DNA of 21,937 nucleotides from a virus. Under the pieces are notes generated by a model. That model ran no database searches. It was not told where the DNA came from and was given only the letters and a program-made list of their open reading frames with translations. The stretch covers positions 1-21,937 of IMG/VR virus record IMGVR_UViG_3300047352_000459; one strand, written 5' to 3'. Within the stretch, counting starts at the first letter, position 1; each line of letters begins with the position of its first letter. The translations under genes and the position numbers were made by a program. Below are positions 1 through 11,592 of this stretch, in pieces.

Positions 1-809
1 TCGAAATCAGTTAGGTCAGCAATACATTGTTCATGATTAAATGCCCATATTTGACCCTCATAAACATTAAAGTCTGCCATATATTCTTGTTGAAACTCTG
101 CTTCGGACATTGTTTTTCTAGCTTCTTTAATATCTGCTTCTGAAACACGAGGATTTTCATGATAAGTAGCTTTGATAGCTGCCCATTCTGGAAACTCTTC
201 AGAATACCCTCTATAATAAAACTCTGCAAAGTAATTATTTCTACCCCTTGGAGTAGATATAAAAATTGCTTTGGAATTGTCTTTATCTAATGTGGGTCGA
301 AGTGCGACGTTGAAAGCATCTCTGCCATCGGTGAGGGCCGCTTCGTCGAATATGATAAGATCGTATGATCTCCCAACCACTGAGTCCACCTGATTAATCG
401 AACCCATACGGATAGTACTATTGTTCGATAGTTCAATAACTTTGTCTTTTGCATTGTCTCTTATTACCTCTAAATCAAAATGTTTTATTAAACCTCTTTG
501 TAAATCAAAAGAAATTTGTGATAAAGAATAGTTTGGAGACATCAACAGCACGTGGCTATCTGGTACTAGACAAACAAGTTGTCCGATTATATTTGATATA
601 TAAGTTTTGCCCTGCCTACGTGAAACAGCGGCAGTTACAAATCTATATTTAGGGTTATTGATTGCATTGATAATTGCAGTTTGTGATGAATTAGGGGTTA
701 TACCTAATAAGTCCATGTATCCTTCTATAGGAAGTTTAATAAAACGCGTTTCTGCGTCTAAATCCATTAGAAACTTTGATTCTATATCTGCTCTACTAAT
801 ATCAATCAA
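1..809 (-). CDS. terL: Terminase large subunit, N-terminal ATPase half (partial at left edge)
   Basis: This is the packaging motor ATPase that drives DNA into the procapsid; only the first ~270 residues are in the window and the nuclease half lies beyond the left edge. Translating the minus strand gives Walker A SRRQGKT (residues 63-69 from the chosen start), Walker B LIIFDEAA, and the coupling motif FISTPRGRNNYF, all typical of T4/T7-type TerL. The open frame has no ATG near its beginning. I chose TTG at 809, whose TTGA overlaps the TGA of the upstream gene, the same arrangement seen at 9941; the first ATG is at 767. The ribosome site is weak, so the start is uncertain. It is the last gene of the leftward run that begins at the 3.5-kb promoter. 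Confidence 0.95.
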   Translation of the reverse strand, partial: MIDISRADIESKFLMDLDAETRFIKLPIEGYMDLLGITPNSSQTAIINAINNPKYRFVTAAVSRRQGKTYISNIIGQLVCLVPDSHVLLMSPNYSLSQISFDLQRGLIKHFDLEVIRDNAKDKVIELSNNSTIRMGSINQVDSVVGRSYDLIIFDEAALTDGRDAFNVALRPTLDKDNSKAIFISTPRGRNNYFAEFYYRGYSEEFPEWAAIKATYHENPRVSEADIKEARKTMSEAEFQQEYMADFNVYEGQIWAFNHEQCIADLTDF

Positions 810-1045
810 TGTAAAGTCTCAAAGTCAAATGGATTATCGGGATCGTCTGCGCTCAATATTTCATTATCTTGAGCCAGCCTGTATAAATAGAGGTAGGCGC
901 TACAGACTTTTGCATACTGTATCTCCACGGGAGATACATGTTTTCCTGTCACTTCCTTTTCAGTAATTTTCATCAAACTACTTTGAGTGTGAACTTGCAA
1001 TTCGTCTAGCCACGCCTTTCGAGTGTCAATTGTAGGTATTGTCAT
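806..1045 (-). CDS. Hypothetical protein, 79 aa, directly upstream of terL
   Basis: I do not recognise this acidic 79-residue protein. It has no signal peptide or membrane segment. A central helix-like stretch (KHVSPVEIQYAKVCSAYLYL) is followed by an acidic tail (SADDPDNPFDFETLH). Its start overlaps the stop of the preceding basic-protein gene as ATGA, and its stop overlaps the TTG start of terL, so translation is probably coupled to terL. Position suggests a packaging accessory role, but a better small-terminase candidate lies at 11131-11592. Confidence 0.8.
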   Translation of the reverse strand: MTIPTIDTRKAWLDELQVHTQSSLMKITEKEVTGKHVSPVEIQYAKVCSAYLYLYRLAQDNEILSADDPDNPFDFETLH

Positions 1046-1383
1046 CTTCTTCTTTTTAATCCTCTAGTATATTTTTGTGATTTTGGCGGCATCTTTTTAG
1101 ACCCACCTTTACCTGCCCAGAACACTTTATTAGCCCAGTATGCCGCTGAGGACTTACCTTTTCTAATATTTTTTGCGTGTCGAGCTTTGAAGCTTTTACG
1201 GGCTTCAGGACTGTAATTATGCCCCATGCCTTGTGCACCAAATCGTATGATTTTTACCTTTCCTCCAACTCTTACAGCTACTACAGCTTTCTTAGTTCGA
1301 TGTTTAGGTGTTCTTTTAGGTTTATTCAACCCTGTTAGTCCAGCTTTTTTAAGCCTTGCTTTTTCTCCTTTTGTCAGTGCCAT
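1042..1383 (-). CDS. Small basic phage protein (DUF6321-like)
   Basis: This is a 113-residue, strongly basic protein. Its sequence (MALTKGEKARLKKAGL near the start; GAQGMGHNYSPEARKSFKAR in the middle; SSAAYWANKVFWAGKGGSKK near the end) matches my memory of a family common in marine cyano- and pelagiphages, which I believe is DUF6321; the accession is from memory. No function is established to my knowledge. The charge suggests nucleic-acid binding, perhaps in the virion. The stop overlaps the next start (ATGA). Confidence 0.85.
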   Translation of the reverse strand: MALTKGEKARLKKAGLTGLNKPKRTPKHRTKKAVVAVRVGGKVKIIRFGAQGMGHNYSPEARKSFKARHAKNIRKGKSSAAYWANKVFWAGKGGSKKMPPKSQKYTRGLKRRR

Positions 1384-1468
1384 CTTTTTTCTTTTTCTTC
1401 TTACGCGGTTCGGCTATGCCACTCCAGATAAATAATTGTGCGTAAGCTTTGCCTATATTTTTAGTAAT
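1349..1468 (-). CDS. Possible 39-aa basic protein with a non-canonical ATT start
   Basis: The gap between the neighbouring genes (1384-1471) is open in one frame and reads like a phage protein: TKNIGKAYAQLFIWSGIAEP followed by a lysine run. The frame has no ATG, GTG or TTG; the only plausible initiator is ATT at 1468, after a purine-rich AGAAAAGAAG. It overlaps the DUF6321-like gene by 35 nt. Either a rare start is used, the frame is a remnant, or there is a sequencing error. Low confidence. Confidence 0.3.
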   Translation of the reverse strand: MTKNIGKAYAQLFIWSGIAEPRKKKKKKDGTDKRRKSKA

Positions 1469-1471
1469 AAG

Positions 1472-1738
1472 CTATCTTCTTTTCTTTAATATTCTGCCAA
1501 CACTTTTCTTACCAAATTTTGCTTTCTTTGGGTTTAAGGTTTTTCCGTATCTGGGTCCGACACCTTTGGGTGCGGCTGAATATCTGAACGCCTCAATACT
1601 GTTAGGGTTTTTAGTATTTACTGTTGTCCCTGCAGCTGCGTTCATGTCTCTTGTAACTCCTCTTTTGAGTTTATGTTTACGAATCTTCTGAGTAGCATGT
1701 ACTCCAGTAGGTCCGCTTAAAAATCCGCCTCTTGCCAT
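1472..1738 (-). CDS. Small basic hypothetical protein, 88 aa
   Basis: The 88-residue product is basic and glycine-rich (MARGGFLSGPTGVHATQKIR at the start, GKKSVGRILKKRR at the end). The start has a good ribosome site (AGGAG 7 nt upstream). No domain is recognised. It belongs to the run of very basic mini-proteins at 1.0-2.7 kb, which probably bind DNA or RNA or sit in the virion. Confidence 0.8.
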   Translation of the reverse strand: MARGGFLSGPTGVHATQKIRKHKLKRGVTRDMNAAAGTTVNTKNPNSIEAFRYSAAPKGVGPRYGKTLNPKKAKFGKKSVGRILKKRR

Positions 1739-1747
1739 GATTTTCTC

Positions 1748-1939
1748 CTATTTGCTTGCACTATTAGTGCCATTTTTTAAGTAATTTGTTAACTTTACTT
1801 TATTGTGCACAGTGTCAGGCAACTTTAAAAGTTTCCTAACTTTTCTATTTTCTTCTAGTTTATTGGTTGTTTTTGAAACCAACTGTTCTAAAAGATTGTT
1901 GATTATATGGAGTTCCTTAATAAAGGTATCTCTATTCAT
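1748..1939 (-). CDS. Small helical hypothetical protein, 63 aa
   Basis: This 63-residue protein lacks a signal peptide. Its first half (TFIKELHIINNLLEQLVSKT) has heptad-like leucines and probably forms a coiled coil; the second half is basic. It lies in the same leftward operon as the flanking basic proteins, with 9 nt to the next gene. Function unknown. Confidence 0.65.
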   Translation of the reverse strand: MNRDTFIKELHIINNLLEQLVSKTTNKLEENRKVRKLLKLPDTVHNKVKLTNYLKNGTNSASK

Positions 1940-1957
1940 ACTCTCCCTTACAGAAGA

Positions 1958-2254
1958 CTAACGTTTTTTACGAGTAGTTCTCCTCTTTTTGCCTCTTTTA
2001 GCAAAGGTAGAAACCATCGTTGGTTTTCCACCTGGATTTCCAGCTTTTCTTTTTCTTGTAACTGCGGAACGAATCTGTGCCTTTGTCATTCTTCTAGCTT
2101 TACTTGCTGGTACACACTTAGGGTATCCCCCGGCTTTTTTGCCTCTTGCTGATTTACGTCCACAGGGGGAGTATCCTCCGCCTTTACGAGGTCTGGATAT
2201 ATCTACCCAGCCTTCTTTGAACCATTTTGTTAATCCGCCTTTCGGTTTAGCCAT
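1958..2254 (-). CDS. DUF5872-like basic protein
   Basis: This 98-residue protein carries the pattern LTKWFKEGWVDISRPRKGGG, then YSPCGR, KCVPASKARRMTKAQ and RKRKAGNPGGKP. I associate it with DUF5872, a family frequent in marine phages and large DNA viruses with no known function. Two cysteines (YSPC, PKC) are conserved in what I remember of the family. The start overlaps the stop of the EF-hand-like mini-protein by 8 nt and has no clear ribosome site, suggesting coupled translation. Confidence 0.85.
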   Translation of the reverse strand: MAKPKGGLTKWFKEGWVDISRPRKGGGYSPCGRKSARGKKAGGYPKCVPASKARRMTKAQIRSAVTRKRKAGNPGGKPTMVSTFAKRGKKRRTTRKKR

Positions 2255-2378
2255 TTTGTGTTTTGTTTTCTGCTTCCATCATTTTATCTTTGATATCAAC
2301 AGACCCGTCCCAGTTTTTATCTTTTCCTGAAACAATATTCCAAAGTTGTATAAACTTTGTTTTTATAAAATCAATCAT
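2247..2378 (-). CDS. 43-aa protein with an EF-hand/dockerin-like loop
   Basis: This short gene fills the gap between two longer ones. ATG at 2378 overlaps the previous stop as ATGA and follows an AGAGGAAAAG ribosome site. The product is an N-terminal amphipathic helix (MIDFIKTKFIQLWNIV) followed by DKNWDGSVDIKD, which matches the DxNxDGxVDxxD calcium loop of EF-hand and dockerin repeats, then a short helix. A single half-site could bind calcium or a partner; only the motif is seen. Confidence 0.65.
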   Translation of the reverse strand: MIDFIKTKFIQLWNIVSGKDKNWDGSVDIKDKMMEAENKTQNG

Positions 2379-2566
2379 CTTTTCCTCTTCCTTGGAGTAG
2401 ACATTCTATATCTTCCACCCCGTTTTTTATAAGTTTTGACTAACCAGCCATTAGCATATGCAGAGGGATAGACTTTAAATTTACGTCTTGCTTCTGCTTT
2501 TACTCTTGCATATAACTTAGGGTTAGTAGGTACAGGTTTCTTTTTTGCTACTCTTCGTCTAGGCAT
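2375..2566 (-). CDS. Small basic phage protein, 63 aa
   Basis: The product has a basic N-terminus (MPRRRVAKKK), then LYARVKAEARRKFKVYPSAY, a WLVKTYKKRGG block and a basic tail. The motif RKFKVYPSAYANGW...YKKRGG recurs, as I recall, in short proteins of marine phages and large DNA viruses, function unknown. The start overlaps the previous stop (TAATG) and the stop overlaps the next start (ATGA), so it is translationally coupled. Confidence 0.8.
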   Translation of the reverse strand: MPRRRVAKKKPVPTNPKLYARVKAEARRKFKVYPSAYANGWLVKTYKKRGGRYRMSTPRKRKR

Positions 2567-2730
2567 TACTTTTTCTTTTTCTTTCTTTTCAAGATTGCTG
2601 CTTGTAAAGCCTTAGGTAGTTTCTTCTGAGCTGCTGTTAAGCCTCCCATTGACTTTTTCTTCTTTCCACCTTTTTTCTTTTTCTTTGGTCTACCGACCTT
2701 CGATCCATAAGTTCCTTTACCCTTCGGCAT
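2566..2730 (-). CDS. Lysine-rich mini-protein with AT-hook-like core, 54 aa
   Basis: I chose ATG at 2730 because GGAG lies 6 nt upstream; a longer frame reaching 2802 overlaps the zinc-ribbon gene in another frame and is rejected. The product starts MPKGKGTYGSKVGRPKKKKK. GRPKKK resembles an AT-hook core (GRP flanked by basic residues). About 40% of residues are lysine. Probably a nucleic-acid binding or condensing protein; no enzyme features. Confidence 0.75.
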   Translation of the reverse strand: MPKGKGTYGSKVGRPKKKKKGGKKKKSMGGLTAAQKKLPKALQAAILKRKKKKK

Positions 2731-2732
2731 AG

Positions 2733-2909
2733 TTATCTCCAATGTCCGTCTGGACACTCTGCCCATCTTATTTTTGTTTTGAGGGGCATAAAACACCCAC
2801 ATTCTTTACAAGTTTTCCATACTTTGTTGAATTTTGGGCACTTTTTACAAATATCGTAACGATTTTTGTGACTTTTCTTGTCTGTAACCTTTATAATCTC
2901 TAGAGTCAT
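2733..2909 (-). CDS. DUF6171-like small zinc-ribbon protein, 58 aa
   Basis: ATG at 2909 overlaps the previous stop as ATGA, and the frame ends 2 nt before the next start. The product has CKKCPKFNKVWKTCKECGCF followed by MPLKTKIRWAECPDGHW, i.e. CxxC...CxxCxCF...CPxGxW, which I associate with DUF6171 of tailed phages. Cysteine spacing indicates a zinc-binding fold. Role unknown; similar genes sit among structural genes in T4-like phages. Confidence 0.8.
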   Translation of the reverse strand: MTLEIIKVTDKKSHKNRYDICKKCPKFNKVWKTCKECGCFMPLKTKIRWAECPDGHWR

Positions 2910-3249: not shown

Positions 3250-3444
3250 CTAGTGTAACTGTGACATTGCTATTATAAGTCCGCATCCGCCAACTATTAT
3301 TGCTCCTGCGCAACTTATTAATATAGTCTCTATTCTTTTTACGTTCTCGTCCATATCGTCGAAACGTTTAAACGCAGTCTTCCACCGCTCAGCACATACT
3401 GCTTCATGTTTAGCCAAGTCTGCGGCTACTTTTTCTGCGTCCAT
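3250..3444 (-). CDS. XhlA-like small membrane protein (holin-associated candidate)
   Basis: The 64-residue product has a charged helical N-terminal part (EKVAADLAKHEAVCAERWKT, FKRFDDMDENVKRIE) and one C-terminal membrane helix (ISCAGAIIVGGCGLIIAM). A cytoplasmic coiled coil plus a terminal helix is the XhlA/haemolysin-XhlA architecture often linked to holins, so a lysis or membrane-anchoring role is possible. It is the first gene after the perfect promoter at 3493-3521 and has a GGGAG ribosome site. The assignment rests on architecture only. Confidence 0.7.
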   Translation of the reverse strand: MDAEKVAADLAKHEAVCAERWKTAFKRFDDMDENVKRIETILISCAGAIIVGGCGLIIAMSQLH

Positions 3445-3524: not shown

Positions 3525-5306
3525 CTATTTTTCGATGGTATATATTTTAACTGGTTCGGACTTTCCTTTGACCGTAACTTCGTCTAAGAATTTGTAATCA
3601 TATCCGTCTACTAGACTGTACTCAGATATGATTAAGTCCGTGTCATAGTTCTTACAGCTAGACTCTAGTCGAGCAGCAAGGTTGACAGAATCGCCAAGCA
3701 CACTGTAATCGAAGCGAGTACTACTACCAAAGTTCCCCACCACGCATAAGCCTGTATTGATTCCAGCACCTGTATTAATTTGATCAAGGCCTTCCTCTTT
3801 AAGTGTTTCATTTAATTCTCCTAGTGCTAGTCTCATTTCGAGAACAGCCTTTGTAGCGTTGTTAACTTGATCTTCATCATCAAGTGGTGCTCCCCAAAAT
3901 GCCATTATACAATCACCCATATATTTATCGATTGTTCCACCATGTTTGAGAATAATCTCAGTTTGGTTATCAAGGAAGCGATTAATGAGAGCAGTAAGTC
4001 CTTGAGGGTCTTTTTGATATTTTTCTGAAATTGGTGTGAATCCTCTGATATCAGAAAAAAGAAAAGTCATACGTTTGGTCGACCCACCCAATCTCAGTAA
4101 TGTTGGGTCTTTCTGTAATTTTTTGACCAAGGCGGGACTTACGTACGTGCCAAATTGTTGTTTGATTTGAAGTTTCTGACGATACTCGGAAAGGAAACTC
4201 AGGAATGTATGGTATGCCCAAAACAAAACCGAGAGTATTACGATTCCGCTAACGTCAAACAAGTAAGAAGATTCATATAATTTCAGACCTGTGTAAAAAG
4301 AACCGCCAACTATTATTAGCAATGAGGGCAACGAGAACCATACGGATCTTGTTGCAAATGCAAGTAGTAATAAGGCGAGGAGTGTTCCTGCGATTTCTGC
4401 CCCAAGTACCCAAGTAGGTATAGAAGGAGCAGTGCCTGTAATAAGATTATGAAGAATGTTAGCTTGTATTTCATGTGGGTATTTCGCCCCCGCAGGGGTC
4501 GGCACCGGGTTGGTTATACCCTCTGCAGTCGTGCCGAATATAATAAAAGGTGCATCAATTGGATTCTTCATGAACTCTGCACCTGTTTGTTTGTAAAATT
4601 TAGTATTCCAATTTAACCAGATACGTCCATTTGCATCCGTGTTCATAAGTGGGTAACTTGGTACTCTAACCCAAGCTAAACCCTGTTCTTCTGTTTTTAT
4701 TTGGTAGCTTGGGTCTCCTATTGCGACTCTTAAGAGTTCGAGTGCGAAGCTTGGGTAAAGTTTTGACTCTACGTTTACGACTAGGGGAATACGACGTGTG
4801 ACCCCGTCTATTTCCGGCGTAGACGTTACTAGTCCGAGACCTTGAGCTTTTTCTTCGAGTACTGGTGCTGTAGGTAAAATTCCTGGGTATTTGAATAGCC
4901 ATGGTGTTGGGTCTTCTCCTAACTGGGCTGTTCCCACGTGTGGGTTAGTTCCAGTAACTTGTGTCGATGCTGCGCTAGCAAGGACTGTTGGTTTGTACTG
5001 CATTCTCATTGCAAAGTAATCATCATAATCTTTGCCACGTAAGTCTGGATTCGGCATAAGAACCGTAAATCCATTTACAGCATTTGTAGATGTTATTAAG
5101 TCTCCGTAGAGTGATCTAGGAAGAGGCCAACCTCCATAGGTTTTAAGAAGTTCTTCGTCAAGATCTACAATAAGAATGTTTTCATTTTGTACTGGTTCGG
5201 TATTCATAATTAGATAGTCATAACCAATTAGTTCGACTCTTTGCATGATACCAGGATTCCATATAAGGAGTCCCATAAAAATTAGTATTGATATTAATTT
5301 ATTCAT
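3525..5306 (-). CDS. CHASE2-domain class III adenylate cyclase
   Basis: A 593-residue inner-membrane receptor cyclase predicted to make cAMP. After one N-terminal membrane helix (residues ~3-16) comes a CHASE2 sensor (~20-290, periplasmic; note ENILIVDLDEE and GGWPLPRSLYGDL), then about three membrane helices (~300-375) and a C-terminal class III cyclase domain (~400-590). Catalytic residues are present: metal-binding Asp419 (FSDIRGF) and Asp465 (KYMGD), purine-specifying Lys461 with Ser535 in the Thr/Asp position, and transition-state Asn542 and Arg546 (GDSVNLAARLES). ATG at 5306 overlaps the curlin-2 stop as ATGA; an upstream in-frame extension to 5348 is less likely. In bacteria CHASE2-cyclases often neighbour FecR-domain genes, as here. 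A cyclase is very unusual in a phage and would act on host cAMP signalling. Confidence 0.93.
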   Translation of the reverse strand: MNKLISILIFMGLLIWNPGIMQRVELIGYDYLIMNTEPVQNENILIVDLDEELLKTYGGWPLPRSLYGDLITSTNAVNGFTVLMPNPDLRGKDYDDYFAMRMQYKPTVLASAASTQVTGTNPHVGTAQLGEDPTPWLFKYPGILPTAPVLEEKAQGLGLVTSTPEIDGVTRRIPLVVNVESKLYPSFALELLRVAIGDPSYQIKTEEQGLAWVRVPSYPLMNTDANGRIWLNWNTKFYKQTGAEFMKNPIDAPFIIFGTTAEGITNPVPTPAGAKYPHEIQANILHNLITGTAPSIPTWVLGAEIAGTLLALLLLAFATRSVWFSLPSLLIIVGGSFYTGLKLYESSYLFDVSGIVILSVLFWAYHTFLSFLSEYRQKLQIKQQFGTYVSPALVKKLQKDPTLLRLGGSTKRMTFLFSDIRGFTPISEKYQKDPQGLTALINRFLDNQTEIILKHGGTIDKYMGDCIMAFWGAPLDDEDQVNNATKAVLEMRLALGELNETLKEEGLDQINTGAGINTGLCVVGNFGSSTRFDYSVLGDSVNLAARLESSCKNYDTDLIISEYSLVDGYDYKFLDEVTVKGKSEPVKIYTIEK

Positions 5307-6097
5307 TGTTGTGTAATAGATATTGTTTTTGTACAGTCTGCCGTACAATTGAAAGTTGCGGTATATGTTTGATTTGTAGCTCCAAGTTGAGTTACATCTA
5401 CATCATATCCTGTTGTATAGAATTTCATATTTGCTACGTGAGCCCCTGTTCCATATTGTGTTAAGTCTACTTCATTATCAGAGTTGTAAAAGAATATATC
5501 TGCATCCTTATTACCACTACCATACTGAGTAACACTTACCGAGTTATTGTGCGCACCACCATTTCCATAAATATAAGAATTATGTTGGCCAGTCCCATAC
5601 TGATTAACAGTAATATCAGAATCATCACCGAAAAAGAATATTTTGCTATATTTATTGTTTCCTGTTTGAGTAGTTGAATAGACATTGTCGTCTCCTGAGC
5701 CTAGAGCTTCTGCGTGGTTATCATTACCTGTTTGAGTAATAGTTACTGTATTATCATCTTCATCTTGGTCAATGTATGCATAGTTATCATTACCGTCTAT
5801 AGTTACAGTAGAAGAGTTTCCTATATTATTTGACCATACAGTATACATCTTAACTGTATTGCTATTGCCCGTTACAGTACTGTTCCATGTAGCATTTGTG
5901 CAGCTATGGGATGTATAGTTAGCTCCTGTTATAGTTCCGTTTGAGTTTGCACCACAAAGAATATAAGTAGCATTACCATTTCCTATTTGCTTAGTAGTAA
6001 TCTGATTATTCGTTCCTTTTGTAATAATCGTAGTAGAGTTATCCCCAGCAAAGCTAAGGGGACTGATTAATAATAATAACGTTATCGCCCGCACCAT
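5303..6097 (-). CDS. Curlin-like repeat protein 2 (CsgA/CsgB-type amyloid candidate)
   Basis: A 264-residue exported protein. A signal peptide (MVRAITLLLLISPLSFAG) precedes an Asn/Gly/Thr-rich body. At least seven units carry the curlin-type Q-x-G-x-x-N pattern, e.g. ITQTGNDNHAE, TTQTGNNKYSK, VNQYGTGQHNS, VTQYGSGNKDA, LTQYGTGAHVA, VTQLGATNQ, and it ends ISITQQ, like CsgB-family C-termini. Spacing between Q-x-G motifs is longer and less regular than in E. coli curlins. Cysteines occur near the front (LCGAN, HSC) and end (NCTADC), unlike classical curlins. The start overlaps the FecR gene by 44 nt and the stop overlaps the cyclase start. Predicted CsgG substrate; amyloid formation is inferred, not shown. 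Confidence 0.85.
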   Translation of the reverse strand: MVRAITLLLLISPLSFAGDNSTTIITKGTNNQITTKQIGNGNATYILCGANSNGTITGANYTSHSCTNATWNSTVTGNSNTVKMYTVWSNNIGNSSTVTIDGNDNYAYIDQDEDDNTVTITQTGNDNHAEALGSGDDNVYSTTQTGNNKYSKIFFFGDDSDITVNQYGTGQHNSYIYGNGGAHNNSVSVTQYGSGNKDADIFFYNSDNEVDLTQYGTGAHVANMKFYTTGYDVDVTQLGATNQTYTATFNCTADCTKTISITQQ

Positions 6098-7154
6098 TTA
6101 TATTTACCTCCAGTATTACTCCTGCATTGTCTATGTATAGATAAGTACCTGCATTTATATCGATACCTATATCGTAATTGTTTTGTCCTTCGTGTACAAA
6201 GTAAATTAATCCTTCTTCCACAAAAGTGTATGTTTGGTATACAGGATCAAAGCCTGCTATTATACCTTCGAGTTCTACTCCATTTAATTGCGAAGTTTGT
6301 CCTCTTTTCTTGCTTGTAGTTTCTACTAATGCTAATAAATCTACAAGAAACTCTATACTTAGTAAATCAATGTCTAGTCTTGTAACTTCTTCTTGTTCTT
6401 CATCACATTTGTCTACTAAAGCATCACAATCTAAGTCTGGAGCCTCTTCAAAGAAGTCTTTGTCTAAATCTGCAGTAGGCGATGTACCTGCTTGTTGTTC
6501 TTCTACTGCTTCTTCGACTTCTTGAGGTCTTTGAACAATTAACATATTGTCAATCATTCCAAGTGTTATATTTGATAAGGTTACAGCTTGTGTGGGTGGT
6601 TGTTCCCATGCTGAAACCATTGTTGCTTGAAAAGCTTCATTGAGTATTTCTACTCCTGCTGCAGTAGTTACTGTTATCTCTCCTGATGAATCACCATTCT
6701 CATCTGGTAGTAGTATAACTAAACTTCTGCCTAATTCGTCCACAGTTGTTGTAAAATCTGTGCCACGAATACCGATAGTTGCTGTTGGAGTATTGATTGT
6801 TATATTCTGTTTGTCAATTTTTCCAAAAGCTCCCGAAATAAATCGAGCTGTTCCAGAAGCCATGTTAAGAGCCATCTTACTCTTACTTGGGTCTGGGTCA
6901 AAGATATATTCATCAATGACTAGTTTTGAATGTTCTGTTAATTTAACTACGGAATCATCTAGAAACTGTATCGCGAGTCTTCCGTTTCCTGTTCTTACAT
7001 CATCGAATGAGAAGATATCTGAATCTATTTCAGCAGTAAAAGAGTCAGTAGAGTTTACTCTAGTGATTTCTCCATTACCTCGTAATTCAGATATCTCTCC
7101 GATTTCTGTCGTAAAGACTGGAATACTCAATAGTATTAGCAGCCAGACGCGCAT
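6054..7154 (-). CDS. Exported FecR-domain protein
   Basis: A 366-residue protein with a signal peptide (MRVWLLILLSIPVFT). The FecR domain spans ~50-135: VRTGNGRLAIQFLDDSVVKL, a KMALNMASGTARFISGAF core and NTPTATIGIRGTDF, the signature of periplasmic FecR domains outside the iron-sigma system. An acidic linker follows (~205-250, VEEAVEEQQ, EEAPDLDCD), then a beta-rich C-terminus ending NGAGDNVIIINQ, which resembles half a curlin unit. There is no adjacent FecI sigma factor or TonB receptor, so iron signalling is unlikely. Neighbours suggest a periplasmic scaffold or a partner of the CHASE2 sensor. It overlaps curlin 1 by 19 nt and curlin 2 by 44 nt. Confidence 0.9.
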   Translation of the reverse strand: MRVWLLILLSIPVFTTEIGEISELRGNGEITRVNSTDSFTAEIDSDIFSFDDVRTGNGRLAIQFLDDSVVKLTEHSKLVIDEYIFDPDPSKSKMALNMASGTARFISGAFGKIDKQNITINTPTATIGIRGTDFTTTVDELGRSLVILLPDENGDSSGEITVTTAAGVEILNEAFQATMVSAWEQPPTQAVTLSNITLGMIDNMLIVQRPQEVEEAVEEQQAGTSPTADLDKDFFEEAPDLDCDALVDKCDEEQEEVTRLDIDLLSIEFLVDLLALVETTSKKRGQTSQLNGVELEGIIAGFDPVYQTYTFVEEGLIYFVHEGQNNYDIGIDINAGTYLYIDNAGVILEVNINGAGDNVIIINQSP

Positions 7155-7813
7155 TGGTCTACATTAATAGTACCGTTTGATGTAGTAGATACTATATTAG
7201 CAACGTTTGTACTTGCAGTATCAGTTTGGTCAATAGTTACAGTATTAGAACTTCCAGTCAAAGTAGCTGTGATCTGATGATCAGCAGAACCTGTCTGAGT
7301 AGTAGTAATATTGTTACTATTTCCACTAATAGTCCAATTATTTATACAACCCACAACTTCACAAGTACCTGTTATGGCATTTGAAGTTCCTGTTATGGTA
7401 AAGTCAGTGTTGGCTCCAGTAGCTGTTGCTGCAGCACCTTGAGTCCAAGTAAGACTGTTACTGTCTCCAATTGTAATATAATCAAAGTCAGAACTAGCAA
7501 TGTCGCCTGTAGCTCCACCTGCTAAAGTAGCAGTGTTACTGTCCCCTGTGACTTTATAAGTCCAACTAGATGAGTTGCCTTGAAGTAATGAAGCCAGGAA
7601 GGTGTTAGTATCACCAATCTGGTCTATATCTACTGTCATTGAAGTACCTGACAAAGTAAATCTATTGTCGGTTTTACCAACTGTGTTAGTAGCACCTATT
7701 TGATCAATAGTAAGTGTAAGTCCTGTACCTGTTTGAGTAATATATAAATCATTATTACCCGCAAACGCTGTAAGAGATAGACATATCGCGAATAGTCCAA
7801 TTATCTTATTCAT
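7136..7813 (-). CDS. Curlin-like repeat protein 1
   Basis: A 225-residue exported protein with signal peptide MNKIIGLFAICLSLTAFA. The mature part is rich in Thr, Asn, Gly and Ser and carries curlin-like units: ITQTGTGLTLT, IDQIGATNTVG, IDQIGDTNTFL, TTTQTGSADHQ, TGSSNTVTIDQTD, plus degenerate TGDSNTATL and IGDSNSLTWTQ. It starts directly after CsgG (8-nt overlap) with a GGGAG ribosome site. The protein ends DQCASGC, and a CEVVGC pair lies in the middle; cysteines are unexpected in a curlin. It is the first substrate candidate after the pore gene, so possibly the nucleator or major fibre. Alternative: a beta-helical adhesin exported through CsgG. Confidence 0.85.
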   Translation of the reverse strand: MNKIIGLFAICLSLTAFAGNNDLYITQTGTGLTLTIDQIGATNTVGKTDNRFTLSGTSMTVDIDQIGDTNTFLASLLQGNSSSWTYKVTGDSNTATLAGGATGDIASSDFDYITIGDSNSLTWTQGAAATATGANTDFTITGTSNAITGTCEVVGCINNWTISGNSNNITTTQTGSADHQITATLTGSSNTVTIDQTDTASTNVANIVSTTSNGTINVDQCASGC

Positions 7814-8702
7814 TGTTTTCTCCCAGATTTGGGTAATTAAAATCCCAAACCTCTTTTTCGAGTCCCTGCATAACTAAACCATATACAGCCGCTTCAATAG
7901 CAGCTCTTACAGCTTGGCTAACAGCCTCGTTCTCTGTACTACCACTTTCGATTTCCACGAGTTCTGTACCAAGTTCTATGAATCTAAACACATCCCCGCC
8001 ACCTCCAGTAGATAGTATAGTTTTTGTGGTTGTAACATTTAACAAAACTTCGCCTGTTTGAACTAATACAGCCCTTAATGTTACTGTAACGACATCTTCA
8101 CGATATTGATTCTTCATACCGATACCTAAGTATCGAGCACCGTTACCACCAGTTCTTACGTTAGTATCATAACTAACGATACCACCCTCTATAATCATTC
8201 CTGCATATAGTAGTGGTTTTAAAATTGTTTTTCCATCCGCCCCTTTGTTGTAAGCCTCAAAAGTACTTCTTACAAGTTGTCTTTCTTTTGTCAAAGCATC
8301 AAGTCCAGTTCTCTCTACAACTACAAACCAATTTCCTTTGCCAGCGTCTCTCAAAGCTTCAATCAGAATATGATGCGCTCCTTGTGTTACTGCAGTAGAA
8401 AAATCAGCAATACCCTCTCTGGCTTTTCTCTGACCTGTGTTATCCCCAAAGTTGTATACTGCTACAACTGTCTTTTGGTTTGGGTAGGGTAGATTAAGTA
8501 ATTGTTGGGTAGCACTAGGTTGTATGACAGGGCCTGTTCTACATACCATTCTATCTGTACCTGCTTTTGCAATTCCTGTTACAACGTCTTTATTAAATCC
8601 TTCTTCAAATCTATAACAGTTATCATATTGTTGTGGTGCGCCAAATGAAGCACATCCCACGAGTAGTAAAGGAACTAATACTTTAGCCAGACGCGCAGTC
8701 AC
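7806..8702 (-). CDS. csgG: CsgG, outer-membrane curli export lipoprotein
   Basis: A 298-residue homologue of the nonameric outer-membrane channel that secretes curli subunits. I chose GTG at 8702: GGAGG lies 8 nt upstream and it gives a lipoprotein signal TARLAKVLVPLLLVGC with lipobox LVGC and lipidated Cys17. A frame opening at ATG 8726 would overlap csgF further. Conserved blocks match E. coli CsgG: VVAVYNFGDNTGQRK, DFSTAVTQGA, NWFVVVERTGLDAL, GGNGARYLGIG, LVQTGEVLLNVTTTKTILS, VFRFIELG. In the constriction loop the Phe56 equivalent is kept (DFSTAV), but by my hand alignment Asn55 is Asp and Tyr51 is replaced, probably by Glu. Its start overlaps csgF by 20 nt. Confidence 0.95.
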   Translation of the reverse strand: MTARLAKVLVPLLLVGCASFGAPQQYDNCYRFEEGFNKDVVTGIAKAGTDRMVCRTGPVIQPSATQQLLNLPYPNQKTVVAVYNFGDNTGQRKAREGIADFSTAVTQGAHHILIEALRDAGKGNWFVVVERTGLDALTKERQLVRSTFEAYNKGADGKTILKPLLYAGMIIEGGIVSYDTNVRTGGNGARYLGIGMKNQYREDVVTVTLRAVLVQTGEVLLNVTTTKTILSTGGGGDVFRFIELGTELVEIESGSTENEAVSQAVRAAIEAAVYGLVMQGLEKEVWDFNYPNLGENNE

Positions 8703-9219
8703 TAAAACATCCTCCGAAGCTTCCAACTGGTATTTCGATAGTTGTTGTAGATATCAACACTCCATCTAACCATTCTTCAACCACTAGAGTGATAGAGACT
8801 CCATTGTTTGTCCAAATTATTCTATTTCCTTCTAACCAAATTTCTCCAGTTACAGGATCCTCTAATGTGCCAGGATTGTTATAATCAAAAAGTGATTCTG
8901 ATATATCCTTTGCAAGTGTAGAATAGATTCTTGATTCTAAGTTTCTCAAAAATTTAGCAAGAGTAGTATTGTCTGCTTCTCTTTGAGCGTCTTCTAAAGC
9001 GTCCTGTGCTTTTTGAGCAAGGGCGTCTTTTCTTGTTCTTTCTTGTTCGTCAATTGTTAAATAGTGTGCGGATTGATTAATCCCACTAAAACTTGGGTTG
9101 CCAAACTTATGTACAAGTTCTGCGGCGCTTAGTTCTGATATAAACAGTACGCCCATAAATACAAATATAGTACCGAGTACTGCATTTGAAACTCTATTAT
9201 TTACCTTTTCTTCTTTCAT
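8683..9219 (-). CDS. csgF: CsgF-like curli assembly factor
   Basis: A 178-residue exported protein with a signal peptide ending near SELSAA (residue ~33). The mature N-terminus ELVHKFGNPSFSGINQSAHY parallels E. coli CsgF (FQFRNPNFGGN...), the peptide that inserts into the CsgG pore and forms a second constriction. A charged helix (~55-100, EQERTRKDALAQKAQDALED) and a C-terminal beta region follow. The tail GGCFSDCASG contains two cysteines and is encoded over the ribosome site and start of csgG. In E. coli CsgF links the nucleator CsgB to the pore. The order csgF-csgG is the reverse of the E. coli csgDEFG tail only in being contiguous without csgE, which I do not find. Confidence 0.92.
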   Translation of the reverse strand: MKEEKVNNRVSNAVLGTIFVFMGVLFISELSAAELVHKFGNPSFSGINQSAHYLTIDEQERTRKDALAQKAQDALEDAQREADNTTLAKFLRNLESRIYSTLAKDISESLFDYNNPGTLEDPVTGEIWLEGNRIIWTNNGVSITLVVEEWLDGVLISTTTIEIPVGSFGGCFSDCASG

Positions 9220-9448
9220 TTTCTTTCAACTGTAAAACTGTGTCCAGTTTCTTTTGCAAGCGAATCATATCATTGTCCAACATCCTTATCTGATCAATTA
9301 ACTGTAAGATTGTTATCTTCATGGCTTCGATTGCAGGGTCTATCTTTTCTGTTATTGTAGTCCACACAAAGTATACAAAGTAACCTAAACCAACCATTGC
9401 TACGATTGGAAATCCAAACTGCTGGATAGCATCAATCACGTCTTGCAT
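9197..9448 (-). CDS. Small membrane protein with coiled coil, 83 aa
   Basis: One N-terminal membrane helix (~14-33, FPIVAMVGLGYFVYFVWTTI) is followed by a long charged helix with MLDNDMIRLQKKLDTVLQLK. The plan matches the next upstream gene (9432-9734), whose helix contains VMNNDMIKIDMSVSSAL, so the two are probably diverged paralogues. GGGAG precedes ATG 9448. Possible holin-like, membrane-anchoring or secretion-accessory protein; position just before csgF makes a link to export possible but unproven. Confidence 0.75.
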   Translation of the reverse strand: MQDVIDAIQQFGFPIVAMVGLGYFVYFVWTTITEKIDPAIEAMKITILQLIDQIRMLDNDMIRLQKKLDTVLQLKENERRKGK

Positions 9449-9734
9449 CTATACTCCCTGATTCTACAAAATTCTCTGCTCTTGCTATTTTTTCTAAGTC
9501 TGGTGTAAGTCCAAGAGCGGAACTTACACTCATGTCAATTTTAATCATATCATTGTTCATTACTTTTATTCTAGTAATAAGCATTTTTGATATGCCCTTT
9601 ACTTCTTCAGTATTTCCAACAACATCATCCATAATTTTACGAATGATTAAAAATATAAAACCGCCCATAAACAATGCAGCGGCTATCGGTGCTCCTACTT
9701 GAGCAATGATATCAAATATACCTAACTCTTCCAT
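9432..9734 (-). CDS. Small membrane protein with coiled coil, 100 aa
   Basis: The N-terminal region (~5-33, FDIIAQVGAPIAAALFMGGF, then IFLIIRK) is a membrane helix; the rest is a cytoplasmic-type helix and a short acidic tail. I chose ATG at 9734; GTG at 9743 in the same frame is an alternative and both have only weak GGA ribosome sites. Similar in plan to its downstream neighbour, with a shared NDMI motif. Unknown function. Confidence 0.7.
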   Translation of the reverse strand: MEELGIFDIIAQVGAPIAAALFMGGFIFLIIRKIMDDVVGNTEEVKGISKMLITRIKVMNNDMIKIDMSVSSALGLTPDLEKIARAENFVESGSIDARRD

Positions 9735-9758
9735 GGGTTCCACGGTAGTATCCAGTAT

Positions 9759-10382: not shown

Positions 10383-10494
10383 TTGTTTCTCCTATTATGA
10401 CTCCCGCTCTACGAGCATCTTGTATTCTTCCTTTTTCTCTAATTGCTTTACTCTTTTCGGAAATGGGTTTGAGTAACCACTTCCAAGTATTCAC
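10327..10494 (-). CDS. Possible 55-aa basic protein, GTG start
   Basis: GTG at 10494 overlaps the stop of the nuclease gene (GTGA), and the frame NTWKWLLKPISEKSKAIREK, RIQDARRAGVIIG fills the otherwise empty 10383-10490. It runs 56 nt into the next gene. There is no well-spaced ribosome site, so it would depend on coupling. The N-terminal part looks protein-like; the C-terminal overlap looks like shadow coding. Confidence 0.4.
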   Translation of the reverse strand: MNTWKWLLKPISEKSKAIREKGRIQDARRAGVIIGETNGNNKNNKTKPHRSIRGD

Positions 10495-11129
10495 CCTCTG
10501 ATATTTGCTATCGGCTCAGGTATATCGAAACATTCTACTTCGTACTCTTGCCACTTCATATCTGGAGCTTCGTTTGGGAAAAAGAAACATTTCATTCCCC
10601 CACTTTCCGTAAACTCTATATTTTTCTGGAAACCATCAGGTACTGTCGCCCCGGTATCTAGAACAAGACTGCTTTCGGAAAAATAAATAAAGTTTTCCAC
10701 ATGTAATAGTTCATCTTCTGACCATTTACGAACAGCTGCTTCTAGAAATCTCCATGCACCCCTGTTAAGTTTTTCGTGCTGCAATGCGGAATTTAAGTAA
10801 CTAAAAGTAGTTTTTAGATTTTTCTCTGTATCGCTGAAATGTGCGGCGGGTGCCATATGACCTTTATCCCACACATTCTTATAGTAGTCTTTGTCATCAG
10901 AAGTGTGAAAATCTTTTTCTTTGTAAAAATTCATTCCCTTTCTATCAACATTTTTAGGTCTATCTTTTACCCAGTATGAAACCTTTATAGGTTGTTCTAA
11001 TTTTTCATCATACCATACTTGATAGATTTCTTTATCCGCCCACAATTGGTGATGGTCTGCATAGGTATACCCTACGAACAGAACTGCTGATAGTAGTAAT
11101 ATTAGTACTGGTTCATTTCCTTTAATCAT
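10491..11129 (-). CDS. DNA/RNA non-specific endonuclease (NUC1/beta-beta-alpha-Me), exported
   Basis: A 212-residue Serratia-nuclease-type enzyme. An N-terminal hydrophobic segment (~7-22, PVLILLLSAVLFVGYTY) is a signal peptide or anchor, so it acts outside the cytoplasm. The active-site motif WDKGHMAPAAHF gives catalytic His91 (DRGH type), and SALQHEKLNRGAW gives the metal-binding Asn122 with Glu130 (FLE) downstream, as in the family. It lies between the putative small terminase and small genes, with an AAGGA site 8 nt before ATG 11129. It could degrade host or competitor DNA in the periplasm, or extracellular DNA in a biofilm. Confidence 0.9.
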   Translation of the reverse strand: MIKGNEPVLILLLSAVLFVGYTYADHHQLWADKEIYQVWYDEKLEQPIKVSYWVKDRPKNVDRKGMNFYKEKDFHTSDDKDYYKNVWDKGHMAPAAHFSDTEKNLKTTFSYLNSALQHEKLNRGAWRFLEAAVRKWSEDELLHVENFIYFSESSLVLDTGATVPDGFQKNIEFTESGGMKCFFFPNEAPDMKWQEYEVECFDIPEPIANIRG

Positions 11130-11130
11130 T

Positions 11131-11592
11131 TTATTTATCCTTAAGTAGCTTTTTCATTAATTCGCCGTAGTTACCTTGTCCGAAGGGAACTTCTCCATTG
11201 TTCTGTATATTTATTTGGTTCTTAACATTTGATGCTTTTGCTTTTTCTAAGTCTGCTTGAGCTTTAATTTCGTCCATTCGCATTTTATGAGCCATTTGTA
11301 GTAAATCAGCTAAGTCTTTATTAGAGTATATTTCTGATTCGTCAGCCTCTTCCATTTTTCTATCAATAAGGTCGTCAAGTGCTTCTGCTAATTTGAATCG
11401 GTTTCTATACCCCGTGTCTAAGTACACTTGATCCACATATGATTTAACTTCCCGCTTAGCAAGTATTTCGCTGCATTCACCTTCGTCTAGTTTCAATCTT
11501 ATACATACGGCCTGGATGTTACCCAGTTCCAAATACGCGTTGGCTACTTCAAGTCCCTCTGGACTAATTCTTGTGGATATTTCATTCTTCAT
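11131..11592 (-). CDS. terS: Probable terminase small subunit
   Basis: A 153-residue soluble helical protein. Residues ~10-45 (EGLEVANAYLELGNIQAVCI) look like the helix-turn-helix of terminase small subunits; residues ~50-110 (KSYVDQVYLDTGYRNRFKLA, LIDRKMEEADESE, MAHKMRMDEIKAQ) match what I remember of small terminases of marine podoviruses. It would recognise the packaging site for TerL, although here terS and terL are ~10 kb apart. ATG at 11592 lies only 6 nt beyond a perfect -10 box, so its mRNA should be leaderless. Confidence 0.75.
   Translation of the reverse strand: MKNEISTRISPEGLEVANAYLELGNIQAVCIRLKLDEGECSEILAKREVKSYVDQVYLDTGYRNRFKLAEALDDLIDRKMEEADESEIYSNKDLADLLQMAHKMRMDEIKAQADLEKAKASNVKNQINIQNNGEVPFGQGNYGELMKKLLKDK

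Follow-up and report, generated by a model that had tools for sequence, protein, structure and literature searches.

Background

The closest described counterparts of the locus treated here are the type VIII secretion system (T8SS) modules of pelagiphages such as HTVC008M and Melnitz; Wittmers et al. 2022 (PMC9599517) reported the same gene set, with both FecR and the cyclase, from pelagi-myophages and podophages. Our subject is a curli-type block of eight genes on the minus strand of the IMG/VR virus record IMGVR_UViG_3300047352_000459, of which positions 1 to 21,937, hereafter the window, were analysed. Like the pelagiphage modules, the block comprises two short open reading frames (ORFs) followed by genes for CsgF, CsgG, a curlin, FecR, a second curlin and a cyclase, in the order csgF-csgG-csgA/B-fecR-csgA/B-adenylate cyclase characteristic of those modules. 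Unlike them, it is carried by a T5-like marine phage and stands between terS and terL, the genes for the small and large terminase subunits, whereas the block of HTVC008M and Melnitz lies between the replication and baseplate regions; moreover, its cyclase falls in a T5-like clade of its own, and the two preceding ORFs are members of phrog_18771 devoid of kinase domains. One account (PMC9004378) describes Melnitz as lacking csgA and csgB; contrary to it, the deposited Melnitz record MZ577098.1 (L002) has annotations for two curlin-repeat proteins within the cluster.

Resemblances extend to several other systems. With bacterial curli or type VIII loci, such as the csgBAC-csgDEFG genes of E. coli and the sphingomonad csgF-csgG-curlin loci L082-L084, the block shares CsgG with its lipobox, CsgF with its N-terminus, and curlin repeats; unlike them, it has no CsgE that could be found, includes FecR, the cyclase and phrog_18771 proteins, and differs in the residues of the pore constriction. 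The BiofilmReg operon of Burkholderia, encoding a LysM-FecR protein and a CHASE2 histidine kinase (PMC5192318), regulates biofilms and likewise sets an exported FecR-domain protein beside a CHASE2 membrane sensor, but the output in the window is a cyclase instead of a histidine kinase with a response regulator, and a curli pore is linked to it. The carrier resembles Demerecviridae such as Yersinia phage phiR2-01 in TerL and TerS and, in related contigs, in capsid, tail and replication genes laid out in the T5 order; it differs from them in that the block splits terS from terL, and its proteins are mostly 25-50% identical to theirs, which marks a distant group.

Because publications had already described the cassette from two groups of phages, finding it here is not surprising in kind, and the first-pass annotation overstated matters in placing the substrates, FecR and cyclase well beyond what was known: the gene set is already in HTVC008M, Melnitz and the study of Wittmers et al. 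What is new relative to the literature searched includes: 1) the T5-like carrier and the terS-terL location; 2) the definition of an eight-gene unit without a kinase; 3) an exchange of the cassette that spares the cyclase; and 4) fusions of PA14 domains to curlins. No published description of the block in T5-like phages was found in that literature (subscription journals and preprints lay outside its scope). The fixed unit in T5-like phages, the co-retention of substrates and pore, the core exchange, the PA14-curlins and the absence of a kinase sharpen the question of function and argue for exported fibres. The analysis also names a testable unit, eight genes with a five-gene core, and calls into question one annotation and one direction of transfer in the literature.

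A conserved eight-gene unit

Searches with Pfam hidden Markov models recovered, far above chance, the six proteins that the first-pass annotation had proposed at this place (curlin 1 being sub-threshold by Pfam), and they form one overlapping head-to-tail minus-strand series. The unit reaches past the right edge drawn in that annotation, with two further genes at 9197-9448 and 9432-9743 lying within the same conserved block, and is an eight-gene block with the following members:

9432..9743, minus strand: holB, gene 1 of the block (phrog_18771, E=4.5e-23; transmembrane segment at residues 7-25)
9197..9448, minus strand: holA, gene 2 of the block (phrog_18771, E=4.1e-26)
8683..9219, minus strand: CsgF, exported (PF10614, E=2.3e-9)
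7806..8702, minus strand: CsgG, outer-membrane pore lipoprotein (PF03783, E=5.8e-55; open frame up to 8726)
7136..7813, minus strand: curlin-like substrate 1, 225 residues, with a signal peptide (Curlin_rpt, E=0.0047; beta-repeat AlphaFold2 model)
6054..7154, minus strand: FecR-domain exported protein, 366 residues (PF04773, E=6e-12; phrog_37870, E=3.8e-68)
5303..6097, minus strand: curlin-like substrate 2, 264 residues (Curlin_rpt, E=2.4e-14, four stretches)
3525..5306, minus strand: predicted CHASE2-adenylate cyclase (CHASE2, E=3.6e-31; Guanylate_cyc, E=1.3e-20; open frame up to a TTG at 5348)

The GTG at 8702, which is preceded by GGAGG, a putative ribosome-binding site, appears the likelier start of CsgG, and the ATG at 5306, with a 4-bp overlap with the curlin gene, the more likely start of the cyclase.

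The conservation of the unit was gauged in 142 CsgG-bearing phage loci, comprising 58 found with the window or reference records, 80 found independently through the CsgG of HTVC008M, and four contigs from metagenome-assembled genomes (MAGs). Wherever there was enough flanking DNA the set was complete, with CsgF in 126/126 loci, a phrog_18771 gene in 114/114, a curlin in 116/116, FecR in 94/94 and the cyclase in 52/52; since all these loci were chosen by CsgG, the counts show what accompanies CsgG and not how frequent the block is. The order is hol-hol-csgF-csgG-curlin-fecR-curlin-cyclase, apart from a single variant where csgF and csgG are separated by a hol gene. Purifying selection acts on each of the eight genes: the ratio of nonsynonymous to synonymous substitution rates (dN/dS) is ~0.05-0.25 in nearly all comparisons (0.04-0.12 for holA), the maximum of 0.45 coming from one pair with few changes. 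Identical junctions recur on independent contigs from other samples (L004, L007, L014, L058, L025, L295 and L296), which answers the concern, raised in the first-pass annotation, that the cassette might be a chimeric assembly.

A cellular survey covered the 80 best CsgG loci among 84,980 bacterial and archaeal genomes. No relative of phrog_18771, FecR or the cyclase was detected near 76 bacterial CsgG loci with these phage-trained profiles, which distant FecR proteins or cyclases could escape. A bacterial source for the whole block was considered and rejected, as the four seemingly cellular hits (L078-L081) are MAG contigs with hol genes and the block as far as they cover it. L078 is T4-like phage DNA placed in a MAG by binning; L079 and L080 are short contigs left unclassified. 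L081/L321 (PAPS01000029.1), binned as Saprospirales, has the full block together with an alternative oxidase, an SdhB-like Fe-S protein and many small phage-like ORFs; it is probably phage DNA, possibly of a phage with respiratory genes.

The pore proteins and the exported substrates

The window CsgG has the hallmarks of a type VIII pore lipoprotein of the nonamer type: besides the PF03783 match, it aligns with the solved E. coli CsgG over residues 66-297 (PDB; E=1e-46), and its lipobox LLLVGC ends in an invariant Cys. CsgF, recognized by PF10614, has an N-terminal segment, ELVHKFGNPSFSG..., that is strongly conserved and kept in all phage groups examined. The N-terminal segment of E. coli CsgF lines the CsgG lumen (PMC7304575), and the conservation of its phage equivalent speaks against a loss of pairing between phage CsgF and CsgG, a possibility raised in PMC9004378. 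As a side note, OR851715.1, a 1.5-kb record titled Salmonella phage S.Kent 1-2-1, contains a CsgG gene and is likely host DNA.

Exported curlin-repeat substrates are likewise present. Substrate 2 is identified by Pfam; for substrate 1 the AlphaFold2 model is an all-beta repeat (predicted local distance difference test score, pLDDT, 79; predicted template modelling score 0.78) with four significant viral fold matches, three of them named 'Curlin associated' (E 3e-9 to 3e-5). Profiles from the alignments of curlin 1, CsgF, FecR and hol found no significant match among PDB sequences. Among relatives the position of the second curlin is variable, and in HTVC008M and the T4-like contigs L207 and L214 a PA14 domain is fused to the curlin repeats (Pfam E 2.7e-6 to 8e-9). 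PA14 is commonly a glycan-binding domain. Its presence on the second curlins of relatives favours a role in export or adhesion over a lysis pore.

Several further elaborations were observed around the substrates. In L166, L187 and L203 the second curlins join another N-terminal domain (KTALIYHSNYSDAHTNVKTQLEADGYTV...), without a Pfam match, to the curlin repeats; by eye this domain looks like a ThuA/GATase-like fold. The pelagimyophage-like contig L187 also has an extra gene for a SoxY-SoxZ fusion within the cassette (L187:5739-6479), and in L226 a 1446-residue protein without a Pfam match lies between FecR and a short curlin (L226:12914-17251). An extra putative membrane protein of 128-187 residues, apparently of one family, is inserted between curlin 2 and the cyclase in the T5-like contigs L004, L007, L014, L028, L271, L277, L295, L296 and L299; the window lacks it.

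The cyclase, the FecR protein and the phrog_18771 proteins

The CHASE2 protein is predicted to be a class III adenylate cyclase, its motifs FSDIRGF, IDKYMGD and GDSVNLAARLE being intact, with the metal-binding Asp pair, the substrate Lys and the transition-state Asn/Arg all kept. For the FecR protein, the C-terminal tail, which ends in GAGDNVIIINQSP, was considered as a curlin-like nucleator and rejected: hhalign against both curlin families gave a probability of 0.2-0.3%, little above shuffled controls, and there was no Pfam match.

The products of the first two genes belong to the same PHROG and have a single transmembrane segment each, HolB with 103 residues and a C-terminal coiled coil, HolA with 83 residues and a coiled coil; neither has a Pfam kinase domain at E<=1. 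Wittmers et al. (PMC9599517) place a 'histidine kinase', sometimes two, always ahead of csgF, and call these proteins short. In the loci that we examined this slot is filled by proteins of ~81-133 residues with one predicted transmembrane segment and a coiled coil, free of Pfam kinase domains, and the window too lacks the preceding kinase ascribed to the pelagiphage module. Because the phrog_18771 ORFs are too short and devoid of a kinase domain, we infer that the published label is a misannotation, judging from the loci here and the paper's description of its histidine kinases.

Exchange of a five-gene core

The divergence of close T5-like pairs at fourfold-degenerate sites is ~0.1-0.35 from csgF to curlin 2, as against ~0.3-0.7 in the hol, cyclase, terS and terL genes. 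As these pairs had been picked by CsgG similarity, loci picked by terL were compared too, and incongruence was seen in both directions: the pair L058/L027 has a terL divergence of 0.03 and a core divergence of 0.21, and L009/L310 are 91% identical in TerL and 49% in FecR, whereas L004/L007 are 95% identical in FecR and 80% in TerL. A sharp boundary appears when L039, whose capsid, portal and tail genes mark it as an HK97/lambda-like siphophage, is compared with L042, assigned to the HTVC023P-type podophages by one 641-residue protein: the two share 3,630 bp at 95.8% identity, ending 8 bp past the curlin-2 stop, while their cyclases are 65.5% identical. In the CsgG and FecR trees podophage and siphophage sequences are nested inside the T5-like ones and the T4-like sequences form a separate clade; the T5-like cyclases are monophyletic. 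Some tree labels were given by similarity only, and L042 is there labelled a siphophage though podophage-like, but the nesting is unaffected because both labels lie in the same nested group.

The five-gene core csgF-csgG-curlin-fecR-curlin has evidently been exchanged between phages, and the cyclase has not. Transfer from myophages to podophages was inferred in PMC9599517 on the sampling then available; the nesting of podophage cores within T5-like ones calls this direction into question, and once T5-like phages are sampled as well, they appear to be the better-fitting source of the podophage cores. More broadly, we put forward as a tentative proposal, possible though short of probable, that marine phages of four or more lineages (T4-like, T5-like, HTVC023P-type podophage and HK97/lambda-like siphophage) have in common a phage-specific organ that displays amyloid-like adhesins, the core of which would be a mobile cassette joined to lineage-own cyclases, with a T5-like and not a myophage source in the podophages.

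Functional interpretation

We think it reasonably probable that the region forms a curli-type (type VIII) module for secretion and fibre display, self-contained and adapted to phages. The two curlins, CsgF and the FecR protein would be exported via the host Sec system; CsgG would form the outer-membrane pore, into which CsgF would plug by its conserved N-terminal segment, organizing the outer face; and the two curlin-like proteins, having crossed this pore, would build fibres or an adhesive coat on the outside of the infected cell. The periplasmic FecR protein and the inner-membrane CHASE2 cyclase may signal the state of the envelope or of secretion as cyclic AMP (cAMP), with the two phrog_18771 membrane proteins as putative inner-membrane partners. 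The block is co-directional with the terminase genes, which suggests late expression, and the benefit could lie in host capture or adhesion, or in the exclusion of other phages. Secretion, fibre assembly, timing, cAMP signalling and benefit, and with them the use as a coat or adhesin put forward in the first-pass annotation, are what we infer from this gene set.

Several observations weigh against such a module. No CsgE (PF10627) match at E<=1 was obtained from eight records, mostly fragments but with the 147-kb HTVC008M record among them, in a search whose E. coli control was positive; the CsgE gate is described as enhancing and not essential (PMC7029224). The constriction loop of CsgG departs from that of E. 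coli, with Tyr66 lost, Asn70 substituted and Phe71 present as Phe or Leu. The Pfam match of curlin 1 is borderline (E=0.0047, under the curated cut-off) and its model matched no PDB fold at E<=0.001, the AlphaFold model of the FecR protein is unusable (pLDDT 39.5), and no clumping was seen in Melnitz-infected cells (PMC9004378). The 'complete system' of the first-pass annotation stands as to the pore, two substrates, periplasmic FecR protein and membrane cyclase, and falls short as to the gate, for which those eight records gave no match.

Other functions have been proposed for such genes. For Melnitz, PMC9004378 proposed a role of the CsgG/CsgF pore in the timing of lysis or in release, in the manner of pinholins or secretins, which would make the curlins and FecR secondary. 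Small membrane proteins do stand ahead of csgF, one of which, HolA, matches a holin very weakly (E=0.0079), and G006 and G007 have a lysozyme gene no more than ~2 kb from the block; but in two large T5-like contigs the lysozyme is >10 kb, indeed ~13 kb or more, from the block, both curlin genes are co-conserved with the pore and show purifying selection, the CsgF N-terminus is retained, and PA14 occurs on substrates. A lysis use of the pore, which the first-pass annotation had also entertained, is thus disfavoured, and we regard it as improbable and less likely than the export of curlin-like fibres. The two exported and conserved curlins, together with CsgF, would be left unexplained if the pore served the uptake of large nutrients or of iron or cofactor complexes during infection (PMC7029224, PMC9599517). 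The lack of a detectable CsgE gate in the eight records would suit uptake and FecR would then reflect iron, but a FecR-CHASE2 pair also occurs in the biofilm-regulating operon (PMC5192318), so that FecR need not signify iron, and this role seems very doubtful.

Closer to fibre display stands the suggestion in PMC9599517 that the block mainly shields the infected cell by means of fibres or a changed surface that exclude other phages (superinfection exclusion) instead of serving capture or adhesion. Core alleles are swapped among phages sharing a sea, as expected for competitive traits, but the PA14 fusions point at least equally to adhesion, and we consider exclusion as the main role unlikely. 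That the curlins are virion components, late genes beside the terminase alongside which CsgG and CsgF were acquired, could be argued from the co-directional placement between terS and terL; the curlin signal peptides, the conserved pore, and the different location of the block in HTVC008M and Melnitz make it highly improbable.

The carrier phage and the flanks of the block

The TerL fragment of the window is up to 56% identical to T5-like TerL and its TerS ~41% identical to that of T5-like phages, and the window evidently derives from a T5-like (Demerecviridae-related) phage. The arrangement recurs in two larger contigs, of which G001 (88 kb) has 18 and G002 (91 kb) 26 proteins matching the Demerecviridae phage phiR2-01, with the major capsid protein, protease, portal and terL genes, where present, in T5 order; the T5 core gene set and order are thus seen in these contigs and not within the 22-kb window itself. 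G001 has one weak dmp protein match (these contigs are incomplete), and a search of eight records for the T5-type endolysin PF13539 found none. The nearest known phages are remote, with ~33% identity in the capsid protein.

In T5-like phages terS and terL are neighbours, and in phiR2-01 they overlap by 1 base, whereas in the window a gap of ~10.3 kb between them holds the cassette. Pfam and PHROG matches bore out on both sides the earlier placement of the block between terS with a nuclease and terL:

11131..11592, minus strand: terminase small subunit, T5-like, upstream border (phrog_3802, E=3.3e-39)
10491..11129, minus strand: exported DNA/RNA non-specific endonuclease in the terS-block interval (PF01223, E=1.3e-23)
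3250..3444, minus strand: small coiled-coil/transmembrane protein following the cyclase in T5-like relatives, outside the cross-family block
3..809, minus strand: terminase large subunit, N-terminal part truncated by the window end, T5-like downstream border (phrog_2, E=2e-26)

A survey anchored on terL found the cyclase upstream in 26/28 contigs with >=4.2 kb of upstream DNA. Of the two exceptions, L304 stops just short of the place of the cyclase, and L275 is a T5-like contig without the curli block, in which other exported proteins fill the slot upstream of terL (L275:1439-4571). The Endonuclease_NS protein beside terS (10491-11129), which has a signal peptide, had no phmmer match in L001-L058. 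The stretch separating the block from terL encodes, in a row on the minus strand (window 1042-2802), five small proteins very rich in Lys and Arg; at least three of them are kept across the T5-like lineage, and they are possible DNA-condensing or packaging proteins.

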